Origin: Microcaldota archaeon
Lineage (GTDB): Archaea > Micrarchaeota > Micrarchaeia > Anstonellales > Bilamarchaeaceae
Reading direction: 5' to 3'
NCBI GenBank assembly: GCA_014730115.1
Contig: WJIU01000026.1
Span: forward strand, 1-43,318
Length of the DNA stretch: 43,318 bases
This document shows, piece by piece, positions 3,318 through 32,980 of this stretch (its first letter is position 1; every line of letters starts with the position of its first letter). The notes below the pieces were generated by a model that had not been told where the DNA came from, made no database searches, and was given only the letters and a program-made list of their open reading frames with translations. Made by a program: the position numbers and the translations under genes.

Positions 3318-4218
3318 TTATTCGGTTTTTTCCAGAATGTCGAATACCCCCTCCACTGATTTGCTTTTCATTGTTTTTTCCCTGATTGAAGCTGCTTTTT
3401 TTACTCCTGCCATGAAGTGTATCGCCTTCATGCGGACATCCTTCTGCTCAGGCTCCCCGCGGTATCTGCGGTGTATCGAGACGTACTCCTCCAGCAGTGA
3501 TATCCTGTCCCCAAATGAGTCCGCCTTCCGGTTGCAGAATACAGGCGGGTTGGACATGGCAGCCCTTGCAATCATGAAGCCGTCGCAATAGCCCTGCTTT
3601 ACCATGTTTTCCCCCTGCCGGGAGGATGCAATGTCCCCGTTTCCCATTACTGGGATGTCAATGTTTTCCCTAATGATTCTGATGGTTTCCCAATCCGCGC
3701 TGTCCCGGTATCCCTGCCCAGTGGTTCTTGCATGGACAATTGCGAAGTCGGCGCCTGACTCCTGCACAGCCCTGCACAGCCCTGCACAGCTCCAGGGTTT
3801 CTCCCTGCCTGCCTGAAATTCTCAGCTTTACAGAAACCTTCCTGCTGGTGGCGTTTTTCATGCTTCTGACCGACTGCCCCACCAGCTCCGGCTCTGTCAT
3901 CATCGCACTTCCTGCCCCGCATTCTGTGATGCGTTCGGAGGGGCAGCCGCAGTTCAGATTGAACCAGGAGACAAAAGGGAAAGTCTCGTCAAGCAGGGCG
4001 GTGGCCCTGCCCAGCTCTTCCGGGCTGATTCCAAAGAGCTGGATTCCCAGGTTTTTTTCCTGCGGATGGGCATCAATTCTCTTCAGCTTGGAAATGTCCC
4101 TCAGGACCGAAGTGGAACTGACCAAGGGAATGCACGCTGCCTGCGCTCCGTATTCCTGGCAGAGCATGCGGAATGCAAAGTCAGAATACCCATGAATCGG
4201 GGCAAGGAATGCCTTCAT
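3318..4218 (-). pseudogene. tRNA-dihydrouridine synthase (Dus), frameshifted by a 10-bp repeat unit
   Basis: N-terminal part (4218 to about 3790) has PIHGYSDFAFRMLCQEYGA and NLNCGCPS; C-terminal part (3767-3318) has IVHARTTGQGY, IPVMGNGDI and DGFMIARAAMSNPPVF in another frame. The junction is the 10-bp triplicate at 3761-3790. Confidence 0.88.
3761..3790. repeat. Three perfect tandem copies of CCTGCACAGC inside dus
   Basis: cctgcacagc x3 read directly. Confidence 0.97.
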
Positions 4219-4250: not shown

Positions 4251-4358
4251 CTACATCGGGAGCCTGTTCAAAAAGGGGGGTTTAAGGATGTAGTATCTGA
4301 GTCTGCGGTAACCGGTTTCTCGGACATGAGGCCCTATTGAAAGTATCTCAACATTCAT
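4251..4358 (-). CDS. Microprotein B, cassette 1 (35 aa)
   Basis: MNVEILSIGPHVRETGYRRLRYYILKPPFLNRLPM*; its ATG overlaps the stop of microprotein A as ATGA; homologous to the 7724-7849 ORF. Confidence 0.6.
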   Translation of the reverse strand: MNVEILSIGPHVRETGYRRLRYYILKPPFLNRLPM

Positions 4359-4459
4359 TGAGTTACCTCTGGTTCCTCGTATGCCCTGACCACCTTTCTG
4401 AGCTCTCCCATAACTCCGGTGACCCGGCTTATCATATTCACGGACTCATCCTCTCTCAT
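4355..4459 (-). CDS. Microprotein A, cassette 1 (34 aa)
   Basis: MREDESVNMISRVTGVMGELRKVVRAYEEPEVTQ*; GGTGG leader; same length as the paralogue at 7822-7926, 15/34 identical, with synonymous codon differences. Confidence 0.65.
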   Translation of the reverse strand: MREDESVNMISRVTGVMGELRKVVRAYEEPEVTQ

Positions 4460-4492: not shown

Positions 4493-4501
4493 ATATTTAT
4501 A
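4493..4501 (-). promoter_or_regulatory. TATA box of cassette 1 (TATAAATAT)
   Basis: 33 nt upstream of the 4459 ATG; identical 9-mer 32 nt upstream of the 7926 ATG. Confidence 0.6.
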
Positions 4502-5790: not shown

Positions 5791-6945
5791 ATGAAACTAA
5801 AAAAACCAAGGCTTAGAGAAATTCCAAAGCAGCCGGAGCCGAAAAAGAAAAAATGGCCGGCGGGCAAACTGTTGCTGTCCTTAGGGTTAGCTGCTACTGT
5901 AGGAATCTTGTCTCAAATTGGAAAATGTGACACAGGCCGAATACATACCGGAGAACAACCAAAAAAGGCTGAAAGCTCAACTCTGGTTGTTAAAAAACCA
6001 GAAGTCAAAATTCCACCAGCAAAAATTCAATTGGAGATGAAAGAACTAAATGCTGGCCTGCCCAATTTTAAAGAAGTTGATGTTCTAGTCGAGTCTTCAT
6101 TGAGAAAGACTGGTTCTCCTGCCTGTCCCTTCTCTTTAGGACCAAAAGAAACAGTGCCGGTAGTTCTTAAGGAGATAAAAAAGAAGTTAAATGACCATGG
6201 GTTTGATATAGCCTCTGCTAATAAAAACCCAGAAGAAATTTTTTACAGTCTGTTTTCATTCTATATGAAAAACAACGCCTGGATGATGATAAGGACTGCA
6301 AAAGTACGTAAGAGAGGGGCGCTCATCAGAACAGTTGGTTGTCTATTCAGGTTTCCCATAACCCGGAAGGCATCCCTCTCTTTTTCGTATTTTGATGGAA
6401 AGTTGTCTGCCACGAATGTACCTGTATTTTTCTTGGCAGGACAGGGCATACCAGAGCAAGGAGCATTTATGAGAGGCGTTGCCGTGAGACGCGGACTAAT
6501 GGTATTCCCGGAACTTCCAGAGCTGGGCGCTAAAATTGATCGGGAAAAACTCGCCTTTGACCTTACCATACACGAAGGTATCCATTATCATACTATGACT
6601 GGGGATAATGATTGGGGGTATGGTGAGTACGATTATGACAGGGGTGCTGATGCACCAGAACCAAAGTCGAAAACTCTGGCACGCCAAAGGGACGAGCTTA
6701 GGGCCTTTCTTATACAAACCATGTATGGTAATTATCCAGAGATGGCTTTTATGGCGATGTTGAATTCGGATTTCGAACAGTATGCCATCATTCGGAAATC
6801 CCTTCATGATTCTCTTGAGCATATCTTTAGCAGGAATCCCAGAAAATTAAGACTTTATAGGCTTGGACGTTTATCTAATAAACAAATAACTCCAGAGGAA
6901 ATGCGTGCAATTGCTTATGACGCTTATCTGAGGAACAAACTATGA
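5791..6945 (+). CDS. Membrane-anchored putative zinc metallopeptidase (HExxH)
   Basis: 384-aa ORF, N-terminal TM (KLLLSLGLAATVGILSQI), LTIHEGIHYHT motif; lower GC than its neighbours. Confidence 0.65.
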   Translation: MKLKKPRLREIPKQPEPKKKKWPAGKLLLSLGLAATVGILSQIGKCDTGRIHTGEQPKKAESSTLVVKKPEVKIPPAKIQLEMKELNAGLPNFKEVDVLVESSLRKTGSPACPFSLGPKETVPVVLKEIKKKLNDHGFDIASANKNPEEIFYSLFSFYMKNNAWMMIRTAKVRKRGALIRTVGCLFRFPITRKASLSFSYFDGKLSATNVPVFFLAGQGIPEQGAFMRGVAVRRGLMVFPELPELGAKIDREKLAFDLTIHEGIHYHTMTGDNDWGYGEYDYDRGADAPEPKSKTLARQRDELRAFLIQTMYGNYPEMAFMAMLNSDFEQYAIIRKSLHDSLEHIFSRNPRKLRLYRLGRLSNKQITPEEMRAIAYDAYLRNKL

Positions 6946-7027: not shown

Positions 7028-7732
7028 ATGAAAGTATTTGTATTGGCAGGAGGAGAAGGAACCAGGCTGAAGCCTTATACATACAATACCCCCAAGCCCA
7101 TGCTGGTGCTGGGAGGCAAGCCGATTCTGGAATACGTGCTGCAGAACATCAAGAAGGCAGGGTACAACGAAGTGGTCCTGACCGTAGGATACAAGCACGA
7201 GCAGATACAGTCCTATTTTGAGGACGGCAGCAGATTCGGCATGAACATAGAGTATGCGGTGGAAGGGGAGAGGCTGAATACCGCCGGCTCAATCCTGCCC
7301 CACAAGGACAAGGTTGATGATACCTTTGCGGTGGTCATGGGCGACCATCTTACCAACCTGGACCTTTCCGACATGTTTGAGCACCACAAGAAAAGCGGGG
7401 CGGCGGCCACCATTGCCCTGTTCAAGGATTCCATTCCTTTGGAATACGGTGTAGCTCATGTGGAGAACGGCAGCATCAGAGGATTCCAGGAAAAGCCCCT
7501 GCTGGAGAAGCTCTACAACACTGCCATCTACATTTTTGAGCCGGAGATATTCGAGCACATTCAGCCAAAAGAGGATTTTGCCAAGAACGTGATACCCCGC
7601 CTGCTTGCTGAAAACAGGAAAGTGTCTGCGTACGTTTTTGACGATGTGTGGTTTGACATAGGAAGGGTAAGCGATTACGAAAGATTTTCCGAGCTTTTCA
7701 GGGTAATAAAGCTGGTTGACGACCTACAGTAG
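7028..7732 (+). CDS. Sugar nucleotidyltransferase (NTP_transferase; glucose/mannose-1-P type)
   Basis: MKVFVLAGGEGTRLKPYTYNTPKPMLVLGGKPILEYVLQ signature. Confidence 0.93.
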   Translation: MKVFVLAGGEGTRLKPYTYNTPKPMLVLGGKPILEYVLQNIKKAGYNEVVLTVGYKHEQIQSYFEDGSRFGMNIEYAVEGERLNTAGSILPHKDKVDDTFAVVMGDHLTNLDLSDMFEHHKKSGAAATIALFKDSIPLEYGVAHVENGSIRGFQEKPLLEKLYNTAIYIFEPEIFEHIQPKEDFAKNVIPRLLAENRKVSAYVFDDVWFDIGRVSDYERFSELFRVIKLVDDLQ

Positions 7733-7849
7733 GTATTTTTCAAAGCCAGGATGCTGGACATGCAGCCTCAGCCACCTGAATGCGGAGTGCTTTGGCCTGA
7801 AAGAAGCCCTTACCTCCACATTCAGGGGCTTTCTGCCGTTTCCCCGCAT
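7724..7849 (-). CDS. Microprotein B, cassette 2 (41 aa from ATG 7849; homology begins at CTG 7825)
   Basis: MRGNGRKPLNVEVRASFRPKHSAFRWLRLHVQHPGFEKYLL*; aligns with cassette 1 ORF B from NVE onwards; overlaps ORF A out of frame. Confidence 0.55.
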   Translation of the reverse strand: MRGNGRKPLNVEVRASFRPKHSAFRWLRLHVQHPGFEKYLL

Positions 7850-7926
7850 TTTCTTGCCACCATCCCAAGCTCACCCATGATGCCTTTAACACGCCTTATG
7901 AGCCTGACCTCGTCCTCCTCTCTCAT
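7822..7926 (-). CDS. Microprotein A, cassette 2 (34 aa)
   Basis: MREEDEVRLIRRVKGIMGELGMVARKCGETAESP*; conserved leader CGGGTGGTTTG. Confidence 0.65.
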   Translation of the reverse strand: MREEDEVRLIRRVKGIMGELGMVARKCGETAESP

Positions 7927-7958
7927 TCAAACCACCCGTATATAATATGCAATATGAA

Positions 7959-7967
7959 ATATTTATA
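7959..7967 (-). promoter_or_regulatory. TATA box of cassette 2 (TATAAATAT)
   Basis: Identical to the cassette 1 box, near-identical spacing to the ATG. Confidence 0.6.
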
Positions 7968-8118
7968 TGTTTTTCCAAAAATACAGTGAAAATTACGTAT
8001 TTTTTCTCTAGATATTGTGAAATAAACATATGCTACAGAATTTTCCTAAGAAAGCAACCAACCAGAACCAGGATTTATCCTCAGTAGAATTATAAAGTGT
8101 TTTATTTAATGGTATATC

Positions 8119-8841
8119 ATGAAAAAATTTCTTTGCGCAGCAGCGCTGGCTGTGTCAATGGGCACAATGTCCTGCTATACTGTCATGGTCGAGCCGCTTA
8201 GGGCAGACAATATGAATACCCTGGAATCCCGGCAGCTTGGGCTCCGCAAGGGGAGGACAACCTTTGCGATGGCCGAGCAGATGATGAAGAAAAAAGGCCT
8301 TACCGGCATTGCCAGCGACCTGTACATACGTGACGGTCCTCTTTATCATGCACTTGCTGCCGATTACCAGGAAAAAATCCACATATTCCGGGATAACCGG
8401 TATGTGCAGTCCGTTCTTCTTGAGTCACAGGATACCCTGCCCTACGGATTTTCCCTGAGGTTCGCAGACAAGGGCGAACGCCTTTTTCTCATAGCATTGC
8501 ACCGCGACCCCATCGGATTTACCGAATTGTCCCAGAAGGCGGGGCCCCCCAGGATTGAATTCTTCCAGCTTTCGAACGGCTCTTTCCGCCATTCCCACAC
8601 CTATGGCATCGGGGCACTCTCCCGGAAGATGGGGGGGCTGACCCACCCCCATTTCGTGGGGCACAGCCTGGATGACGGCGTCCTTTTCATTGCCAGGACA
8701 AAGGAAGGCAGGGTGTGGGAATCAGCATTCAGGCTGAAGCTGGAGAATGAAAAGACGGGGATGTCCCCTGTTCCGCTAAGGGAGGCTGCGCGATGCTCGT
8801 GCATCCAGAATTATATTTACGGCCTAGATGTAGAGGAATAG
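8119..8841 (+). CDS. Putative lipoprotein, unknown function
   Basis: 240-aa ORF, signal peptide with GTMSC lipobox-like end. Confidence 0.75.
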   Translation: MKKFLCAAALAVSMGTMSCYTVMVEPLRADNMNTLESRQLGLRKGRTTFAMAEQMMKKKGLTGIASDLYIRDGPLYHALAADYQEKIHIFRDNRYVQSVLLESQDTLPYGFSLRFADKGERLFLIALHRDPIGFTELSQKAGPPRIEFFQLSNGSFRHSHTYGIGALSRKMGGLTHPHFVGHSLDDGVLFIARTKEGRVWESAFRLKLENEKTGMSPVPLREAARCSCIQNYIYGLDVEE

Positions 8842-31195: not shown

Positions 31196-32980
31196 ATGCA
31201 AAACAAGTCCTCCAAGCCTGCAGATAAAAGGGAGACTGTGAAACCCGGCCGGAGCAGCCCGTTCCAGAGCATTTCCCGCACGGTTGCAAGGGACACGGTG
31301 AGCTCTTCCAGCCGTCCGGTTGCAACCATGGTTACAAGGGTGGGCAGGTTTGCCGCAAAGGAAACCCTGCAGGAGCCCCCTGCAGATTCCCTTACCGACC
31401 GCGAAATCCAGAGAGGCAGCGGAAGCACCCTTACATTCGGAAGGCTTATTGGAAAAGGAGGAATGGGCAGGATATACTGGGGCCGGATGGTTGACAGGTC
31501 CAGCGGGGGGGAAATCATGGTGGACAACCAGGTCGCGGTCAAGGTGATAAGCTTTGAAAAGAACAGCAGGGAGACCGGCGAAGAGAGAAACGACAGGATT
31601 CAGAGCTTTTTCAGGGAAGTAAAGCTGGCCTCCCGCCTCAAGCACGACAATATTGTCAGGATTCTTGCATTCGGGGAAACCGAAGGAAAAGAGCCTTATT
31701 TCGTAATGGAGTTCCTCAGGGGGGAGAGCCTGGAGGAGCGCATTGCCAGGAAGGGAAGGATGGCATGGGATGAGCTGCGGCCCCTGGTGCTCCAGACCTG
31801 CGACGGGCTGGAGGCCGCCCACAACTACATTGATGGGGAAACCGGCCTTAAGCTGCCGATTGTGCACCGGGACATAAAGCCTGCAAACATCTTTGTGACA
31901 AAAGACAGCAGGGGAAGGGACATGGCCAAGATTGTGGACTTCGGCCTTGCCAAGACCGTGAACCCTGCCGGCCAGGAAAGTGTGCAGGGAAACACAGTGG
32001 TGGGCACTCCTGAATACATGTCCCCCGAGCAGATTATGAACAAGGCAATAGACCACCGCTCCGACATCTATGCACTCGGGGTTCTTATGTATGACCTGCT
32101 TTCCGGGGAGCCGCCGTTCCCGCTTGGCGAAGGCGGGGTGGTCAGGATGTGGAACAGGATGCTCAAGGAAAAGCCGGTGCCGCTCAGGGAAAAGGGCATT
32201 GACATCCCCCCTGAGCTGGATGGGATAATATCCATATGCCTGGAAAAAGACCCGGATAAGCGCTTCCAGTCCGCCCGGGAGCTCAGGAAAGCAATCATGG
32301 AGTCTGACGGGGACGTAATCGACCTGGACCATCTCTTTCCTGATGAAAGCCCCCCGGACACCCCGCTTCCGTCATTTGTGCCTGAACTCCCGGAGAGGAG
32401 GGCCAGCGGGGACGACCTTACCAGGGTTTATGATTCATCAAAAGCCAGCGGCATGGCCAGGAAGGGCAGGATGAAAAAATGGATAGCGGCAGGCTCCCTG
32501 CTCCTTGCCACAACCATCGCCGGAGGAACGGTGGGCATGGTCTACCATCTTTCCGGGGAAAGCCAGGGGAGGGTTGCAGAGCCCCGGGCACCGGAGAAGG
32601 AGCGCAAGCCTGCAGATGTAGCTGCCGAGCCCGTGGCCGCTTCGCCCGCACCTGTGCCTATTCCCGCAGATGCCGCTCCTGATGCTGCCCCGGAAGTGGT
32701 TGAGCACGACATTACCTTCAGGACCAATGTTTCCGGGGCATCTGTCATCATTGAAGGGGAGGAGCGCTGCACTACCTCCCGGGACGGCACCTGCACAATC
32801 AGCCTTACCCACGGAACAGAGGGAGTGAGGGTCATGCTGGAAAGAAGCGGCTTTGAGGATGAAACAGTATCGGTTGTGCCTGACGAGGAGCAGACCCGTC
32901 CGGTGCGCATGAGCAGAATCCAGCCAAGGGAGCGCGAACCTGCCAGGAGGCAAACCCCCAGAATCCTTTCACCGGACTGA
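31196..32980 (+). CDS. Bacterial-type (Hanks) Ser/Thr protein kinase, one TM, C-terminal PEGA-like domain
   Basis: LIGKGGMGRIYWG, VAVKVI, VHRDIKPANIF, VDFGLAK, GTPEYMSPEQ; TM WIAAGSLLLATTIAGGTVGMVYHL; ITFRTNVSGASVIIEGEERCTTSRDGTCTISL. Confidence 0.92.
   Translation: MQNKSSKPADKRETVKPGRSSPFQSISRTVARDTVSSSSRPVATMVTRVGRFAAKETLQEPPADSLTDREIQRGSGSTLTFGRLIGKGGMGRIYWGRMVDRSSGGEIMVDNQVAVKVISFEKNSRETGEERNDRIQSFFREVKLASRLKHDNIVRILAFGETEGKEPYFVMEFLRGESLEERIARKGRMAWDELRPLVLQTCDGLEAAHNYIDGETGLKLPIVHRDIKPANIFVTKDSRGRDMAKIVDFGLAKTVNPAGQESVQGNTVVGTPEYMSPEQIMNKAIDHRSDIYALGVLMYDLLSGEPPFPLGEGGVVRMWNRMLKEKPVPLREKGIDIPPELDGIISICLEKDPDKRFQSARELRKAIMESDGDVIDLDHLFPDESPPDTPLPSFVPELPERRASGDDLTRVYDSSKASGMARKGRMKKWIAAGSLLLATTIAGGTVGMVYHLSGESQGRVAEPRAPEKERKPADVAAEPVAASPAPVPIPADAAPDAAPEVVEHDITFRTNVSGASVIIEGEERCTTSRDGTCTISLTHGTEGVRVMLERSGFEDETVSVVPDEEQTRPVRMSRIQPREREPARRQTPRILSPD

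Follow-up and report, generated by a model that had tools for sequence, protein, structure and literature searches.

The window, by which we mean the whole analysed stretch of 43,318 nt, carries two small gene cassettes of the same layout on its minus strand, cassette 1 (4501–4251) and cassette 2 (7967–7724). Each comprises a TATA box, a leader, a first short ORF (A) and a second one (B) that overlaps A in the -1 frame. The ORFs are referred to as A1 and B1 for cassette 1 and as A2 and B2 for cassette 2. The individual features are:

4493..4501, minus strand: TATA box of cassette 1
4355..4459, minus strand: A1, 34 aa
4251..4358, minus strand: B1, 35 aa, with Shine-Dalgarno (SD) sequence GAGGT and an ATGA 4-nt overlap with A1
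7967–7959, minus strand: TATA box of cassette 2, TATAAATAT
7928..7936, minus strand: leader GGTGGTTTG including the SD sequence GGTGG for A2 (anti-SD duplex -8.2 kcal/mol)
7926–7822, minus strand: A2, 34 aa, MREEDEVRLIRRVKGIMGELGMVARKCGETAESP, supported by profile and codon-position evidence
7861–7857, minus strand: SD sequence GGTGG for B2, within A2 (-10.9 kcal/mol)
7724..7849, minus strand: B2 as read from an internal ATG, 41 aa, MRGNGRKPLNVEVRASFRPKHSAFRWLRLHVQHPGFEKYLL
7823..7825, minus strand: CTG, an earlier candidate for the B2 start, unsupported here
7819–7817, minus strand: GTG in the frame of B2
7784..7810, minus strand: rewritten centre of B2, RASFRPKHS, where the family has the motif LS[VI]GPxxRE
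7724–7732: 9-nt overlap of B2 with the convergent nucleotidyltransferase gene (NTP_transferase)
7733..8823: block with cassette 2 and an orphan gene (8119–8841, plus strand), missing between the nucleotidyltransferase and glycosyltransferase genes in the genome G010 and several other relatives

All ATATAAATAT sites (two) and all GGTGGTTTG sites (two) of the window belong to these cassettes. The TATA box and the ATG of A2 are separated by 32 nt, as the preliminary description of the locus had given, and the spacing in cassette 1 is 33 nt. We also reproduced the 34-aa length of A2 with 15 of 34 residues identical to A1, the 9-nt run of B2 into the nucleotidyltransferase gene and the correspondence between the CTG at the A2 stop and the ATG of B1. 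In the genome assembly (1.15 Mb, 46 contigs) a profile of A, built from both rows, matched the two cassettes only, with E-values of 3e-23 and 8e-23 (8.5e-23 for cassette 2). With two copies in the whole genome, a multicopy mobile element was rejected. A viral origin was rejected as well, given that viral contigs held no relatives and PHROG gave no match.

Two further ORFs of the window were examined by eye. The 384-aa protein encoded at 5791–6945 (plus strand) has no Pfam match; it shows an N-terminal membrane segment and a HEGIH motif (HExxH, zinc-protease-like). The ORF at 31196–32980 (plus strand) is protein kinase-like with an apparent C-terminal PEGA-type repeat, as read from the translation only.

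The family was traced in 301 genomes of the class, 17 of them from the same genus, employing a profile of A+B and then a profile of B alone. The B profile detected B in 12 of the 17 genomes of the genus, and neither profile yielded anything convincing outside the genus among the 301. Convincing homologues of A were likewise confined to the genus (G010 at 1e-11). Together with the codon-position differences between A1 and A2 given below, these profile E-values place the similarity beyond chance. Five species (G001, G002, G005, G006 and G014) encode A and B as a single ORF of 59–72 aa. In this fused form, module A (..RVxGxMGELG..) lies at the N-terminus and module B, with the consensus NVEILSVGPxFRELDYRxLYxxIxxPPFxKxxP, at the C-terminus; the linker between them is variable. 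The module RVxGxMGELG is also found in cassette 2, as judged by the third-position excess and by the two-row profile, which includes cassette 2 itself. A block similar to AAAACATATAAATAT precedes most homologues. Searches of Pfam, NCBIfam, PHROG and PADLOC with the A/B proteins returned non-significant or short partial matches only, and a sequence search of PDB structures gave short partial matches, none of them convincing. An AlphaFold2 model of the fused protein L062 had a pLDDT of 43 and was uninformative. The A/B gene is a small protein family restricted to one Micrarchaeota genus and previously unlisted.

B lies outside the frame of A at eight loci: both cassettes of the window, G010, G012, G013, G007, G008 and G015. 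The offset of B is -1 at seven of these eight, the exception being G015. The split in G010, G012 and G013 matches that of both window cassettes, B being in the -1 frame. At G007, G008 and G015, B is intact and the A frame has decayed, with leader and promoter kept; G011 retains A and has no B. A tree of the dihydrouridine synthase (Dus) alone was unresolved. The combined tree of Dus and two V-type ATPase subunits resolved only G000 with G010, the latter being the sister genome of the window's genome (support 100/99), and the group of G007, G008 and G015. On this tree with its two resolved clades, the gene is likely to have changed between split and fused state at least twice.

The ancestral site of the gene is between alba and dus, the position of cassette 1. 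In G009 alba adjoins dus directly with nothing between them. The dus gene of the window is itself broken into two ORFs (3670–4218 and 3318–3767), both matching Pfam Dus, and three 10-nt repeats GCTGTGCAGG follow each other in a run at the break (3761–3790, minus strand). In 14 relatives dus is one open frame. The break could be either a slippage mutation or an assembly error.

The surroundings of cassette 2, which is carried by one genome only, differ from those in related genomes. In the window, the nucleotidyltransferase gene is separated from a glycosyltransferase gene by 1.09 kb holding cassette 2 and the orphan gene. In G010 the two flanking genes overlap directly and leave no room for the cassette; they abut or overlap also in G012, G013, G002 and G009. 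Because these genes are contiguous in G010 and other relatives, cassette 2 was probably inserted in the lineage of the window. Sequence comparison thus identifies it as a probable inserted, diverged paralogue, and its source was probably a duplication of the copy between alba and dus. A2 is about equidistant from A1 and from A of G010, which implies that the duplication was not recent or that evolution was fast. The orphan gene inserted together with cassette 2 encodes 240 aa with a lipobox-like N-terminus (MSCYT). Its homologues occur in G005 and G008 only, in the latter directly beside dus.

Codon-position differences were used to judge both halves of the gene. For A, we counted 4/4/15 differences at codon positions 1/2/3 between the two cassettes and 5/4/17 between G010 and G005. 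Judged by this third-position excess, A is coding in cassette 1, cassette 2, G010 and G005. For B, the counts are 8/11/21 between cassette 1 and G010 and 2/5/18 between G012 and G013, and by the same measure B is coding in these pairs. The A sequences of G012 and G013 differ by 6/5/4 without bias. With position bias in B and none in A, B is the constrained half in this pair. A seems to lose constraint after the split at these two loci (L020/L019). A subsequent decay of A is seen in G008, G015 and G007 (L050–L052), where B is conserved and has a common C-terminal extension.

The codon bias also bears on a reading in which the A region is no protein but a structured RNA leader that regulates B. 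The loss of the A frame in G007, G008 and G015, with leader and promoter persisting, would suit such an element. However, the bias in both cassettes, G010 and G005 is clear, the folding z-scores at 14 loci range from -1.95 to +0.79 with no common structure, and Rfam gave no match. With z-scores near zero, an RNA leader or riboswitch is largely refuted, and we give this reading very little credence.

For the start of B2, the preliminary description had listed three options, namely initiation at the CTG, use of an upstream ATG within A2, and ribosomal frameshifting that joins A and B. The upstream ATG at 7849 was correctly named, yet as only one of three in spite of its strong SD sequence, and the B-frame GTG at 7819–7817 was overlooked. 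Seven bases separate ATG 7849 from the preceding GGTGG (7861–7857). The anti-SD energy of this ATG, -10.9 kcal/mol, is equalled or bettered by 1.2% of the window's ATGs, in a window where this energy discriminates poorly (median -3.8 for gene ATGs vs -3.3 for other ATGs). The same arrangement recurs in relatives: at seven of the eight split loci, the frame of B contains an ATG 27–33 nt ahead of the conserved core (27 nt in cassette 2 and G010, 33 nt in G012 and G013, 30 nt in G007, G008 and G015), with SD energies from -6.3 to -15.0. Cassette 1 alone starts B at the ATGA, 3 nt ahead of the core. When the codons of A were reshuffled with its protein unchanged, an ATG preceded by an equally good SD sequence arose with P = 0.046 (cassette 2), 0.044 (cassette 1), 0.083 (G010), 0.059 (G013) and 0.009 (G012), values that are individually modest and mutually non-independent. 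Taken as a whole, the SD argument for a start at 7849 is suggestive. The eight residues of B2 ahead of the core show no conservation with G010. Since relatives have the in-frame ATG upstream of the core and the ATGA occurs in cassette 1 only, cassette 2 keeps the common arrangement; the altered coupling start ascribed to it belongs to cassette 1.

A start of B2 at CTG 7825 or GTG 7819, by termination-reinitiation at the stop of A2, would place initiation where cassette 1 has its ATGA overlap, and the codon matching the GTG is GTG in G010, too. In archaea, translational coupling is favoured where stop and start overlap by 1 or 4 nt, and termination-reinitiation requires that overlaps or distances be very short (PMC6728339, PMC10666635). 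Cassette 1 has such a 4-nt overlap and cassette 2 does not: there, only the CTG overlaps the stop of A, whereas the best start at 7849 overlaps A by 28 nt. With this long overlap and an internal SD sequence, de novo internal initiation fits cassette 2 better than reinitiation at the stop. The SD energies of CTG and GTG (-3.5 and -2.6 kcal/mol) are at background level. CTG is a rare start codon, and the codon matching it is ATG in cassette 1 but TTA in G010. We thus regard a start at either codon as improbable. A programmed -1 frameshift that fuses A and B into a product of about 66 aa would agree with the truly fused form in five species, with the -1 offset at seven of eight split loci and with a C run shortly before the A stop of cassette 2. 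However, no in-frame X XXY YYZ heptamer is present in the overlaps of cassette 1, cassette 2, G010, G012 and G013, the C run is found in cassette 2 only, and a B-frame ATG with a recognizable SD sequence exists at all split loci. In a test of pseudoknot-free folding, the leader folds no better than shuffled sequences. A frameshift is hardly to be expected here.

A more serious competitor concerns B2 itself, which the preliminary description had taken as a copy of the B of cassette 1. It shares 11 positions (34%) with B1 across small gaps, but its central 9–10 residues have been rewritten. The core LS[VI]GP was replaced through what appears to be a deletion of 8 nt, together with compensating indels. 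B2 is absent from the B-profile matches in its own genome at E ≤ 0.01, and its amino-acid divergence is the highest in the family (pN 0.42–0.54, with pN/pS near 1 in several pairs). By sequence, B2 is altered or decaying and may be non-functional. Cassette 2 could therefore be a decaying duplicate, in which A2 is perhaps still made and B2 is a pseudogene with a leftover open frame. Decay of A (G007, G008 and G015) or loss of B (G011) is known elsewhere in the genus. Indels in B had been named beforehand as a sign of a decayed locus, and frame-changing indels are indeed present; they restore the frame, however, and the C-terminal half of B2 with its PxF..P tail still matches the family profile, only 1 of 2000 shuffles scoring as well. 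Promoter, both SD sequences and A2 are intact. We consider decay unlikely on the whole, albeit well ahead of the other alternatives. As the best overall explanation we favour, with reasonable though not high confidence, a split genus-restricted gene present as a diverged paralogue, with B2 initiated at the internal ATG 7849.

Based on these comparisons we propose the following scheme. In the lineage of the window, a frame change in the linker would have turned A and B into overlapping ORFs on one transcript. Transcription of cassette 2 is predicted to start from its TATA box, and A2 would be initiated at 7926 via GGTGG. B2 would be initiated at its own ATG 7849 within A2, in the -1 frame and via a second GGTGG, yielding a basic protein of 41 aa; ribosome entry would probably be helped by translation of A2, which opens the mRNA. 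The CTG at the stop of A2 would then be an internal codon of B2. Cassette 1, with its ATGA 4-nt overlap and GAGGT, appears suited to termination-reinitiation. A and B may reassociate into an equivalent of the fused protein, and the function of B2 has presumably been changed or reduced. B2 has a net charge of about +7, and alba and the ancestral copy are divergently oriented; on these grounds we venture the weak bet of a small protein that associates with nucleic acids or has a regulatory role. As a tentative and still doubtful generalization, a microprotein gene of one genus may have undergone at least two splits into ORFs that overlap out of frame. In each case the second half would owe its own start to the MGELG codons, which are conserved and, together with those following, happen to spell a Shine-Dalgarno sequence; the first half would then have been free to decay.

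The puzzle of a start codon thus leads to a concrete annotation, a small Micrarchaeota protein family with one-ORF and two-ORF forms. Cassette 2 would need no unusual decoding, neither a CTG start nor a slip of the reading frame. The set of loci can be used for testing how overlapping, translationally coupled genes originate and, if the gene was split at least twice, it would be a natural series for the birth of overlapping gene pairs from one gene.

Among known systems, taxonomically restricted (orphan) small-protein families are alike in having no database match, here with one genus among 301 class genomes; the A/B family is not categorically different from them and is unusual only in its split architecture and second copy. 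Gene fission and fusion of small ORFs is paralleled by the single ORF in five species and the two ORFs in other members of the genus. The A/B gene differs in the out-of-frame overlap of its parts and in the location of the second part's SD sequence inside the coding sequence of the first. With archaeal coupled overlapping pairs (ATGA/TGATG; PMC6728339, PMC10666635) the cassettes share the arrangement of two overlapping ORFs in the same direction behind a single promoter, and cassette 1 also shares the classic 4-nt ATGA overlap. Cassette 2 differs by its 28-nt overlap and its own internal SD sequence, and both cassettes differ from such pairs in that the two ORFs are tiny and are fused in other species.
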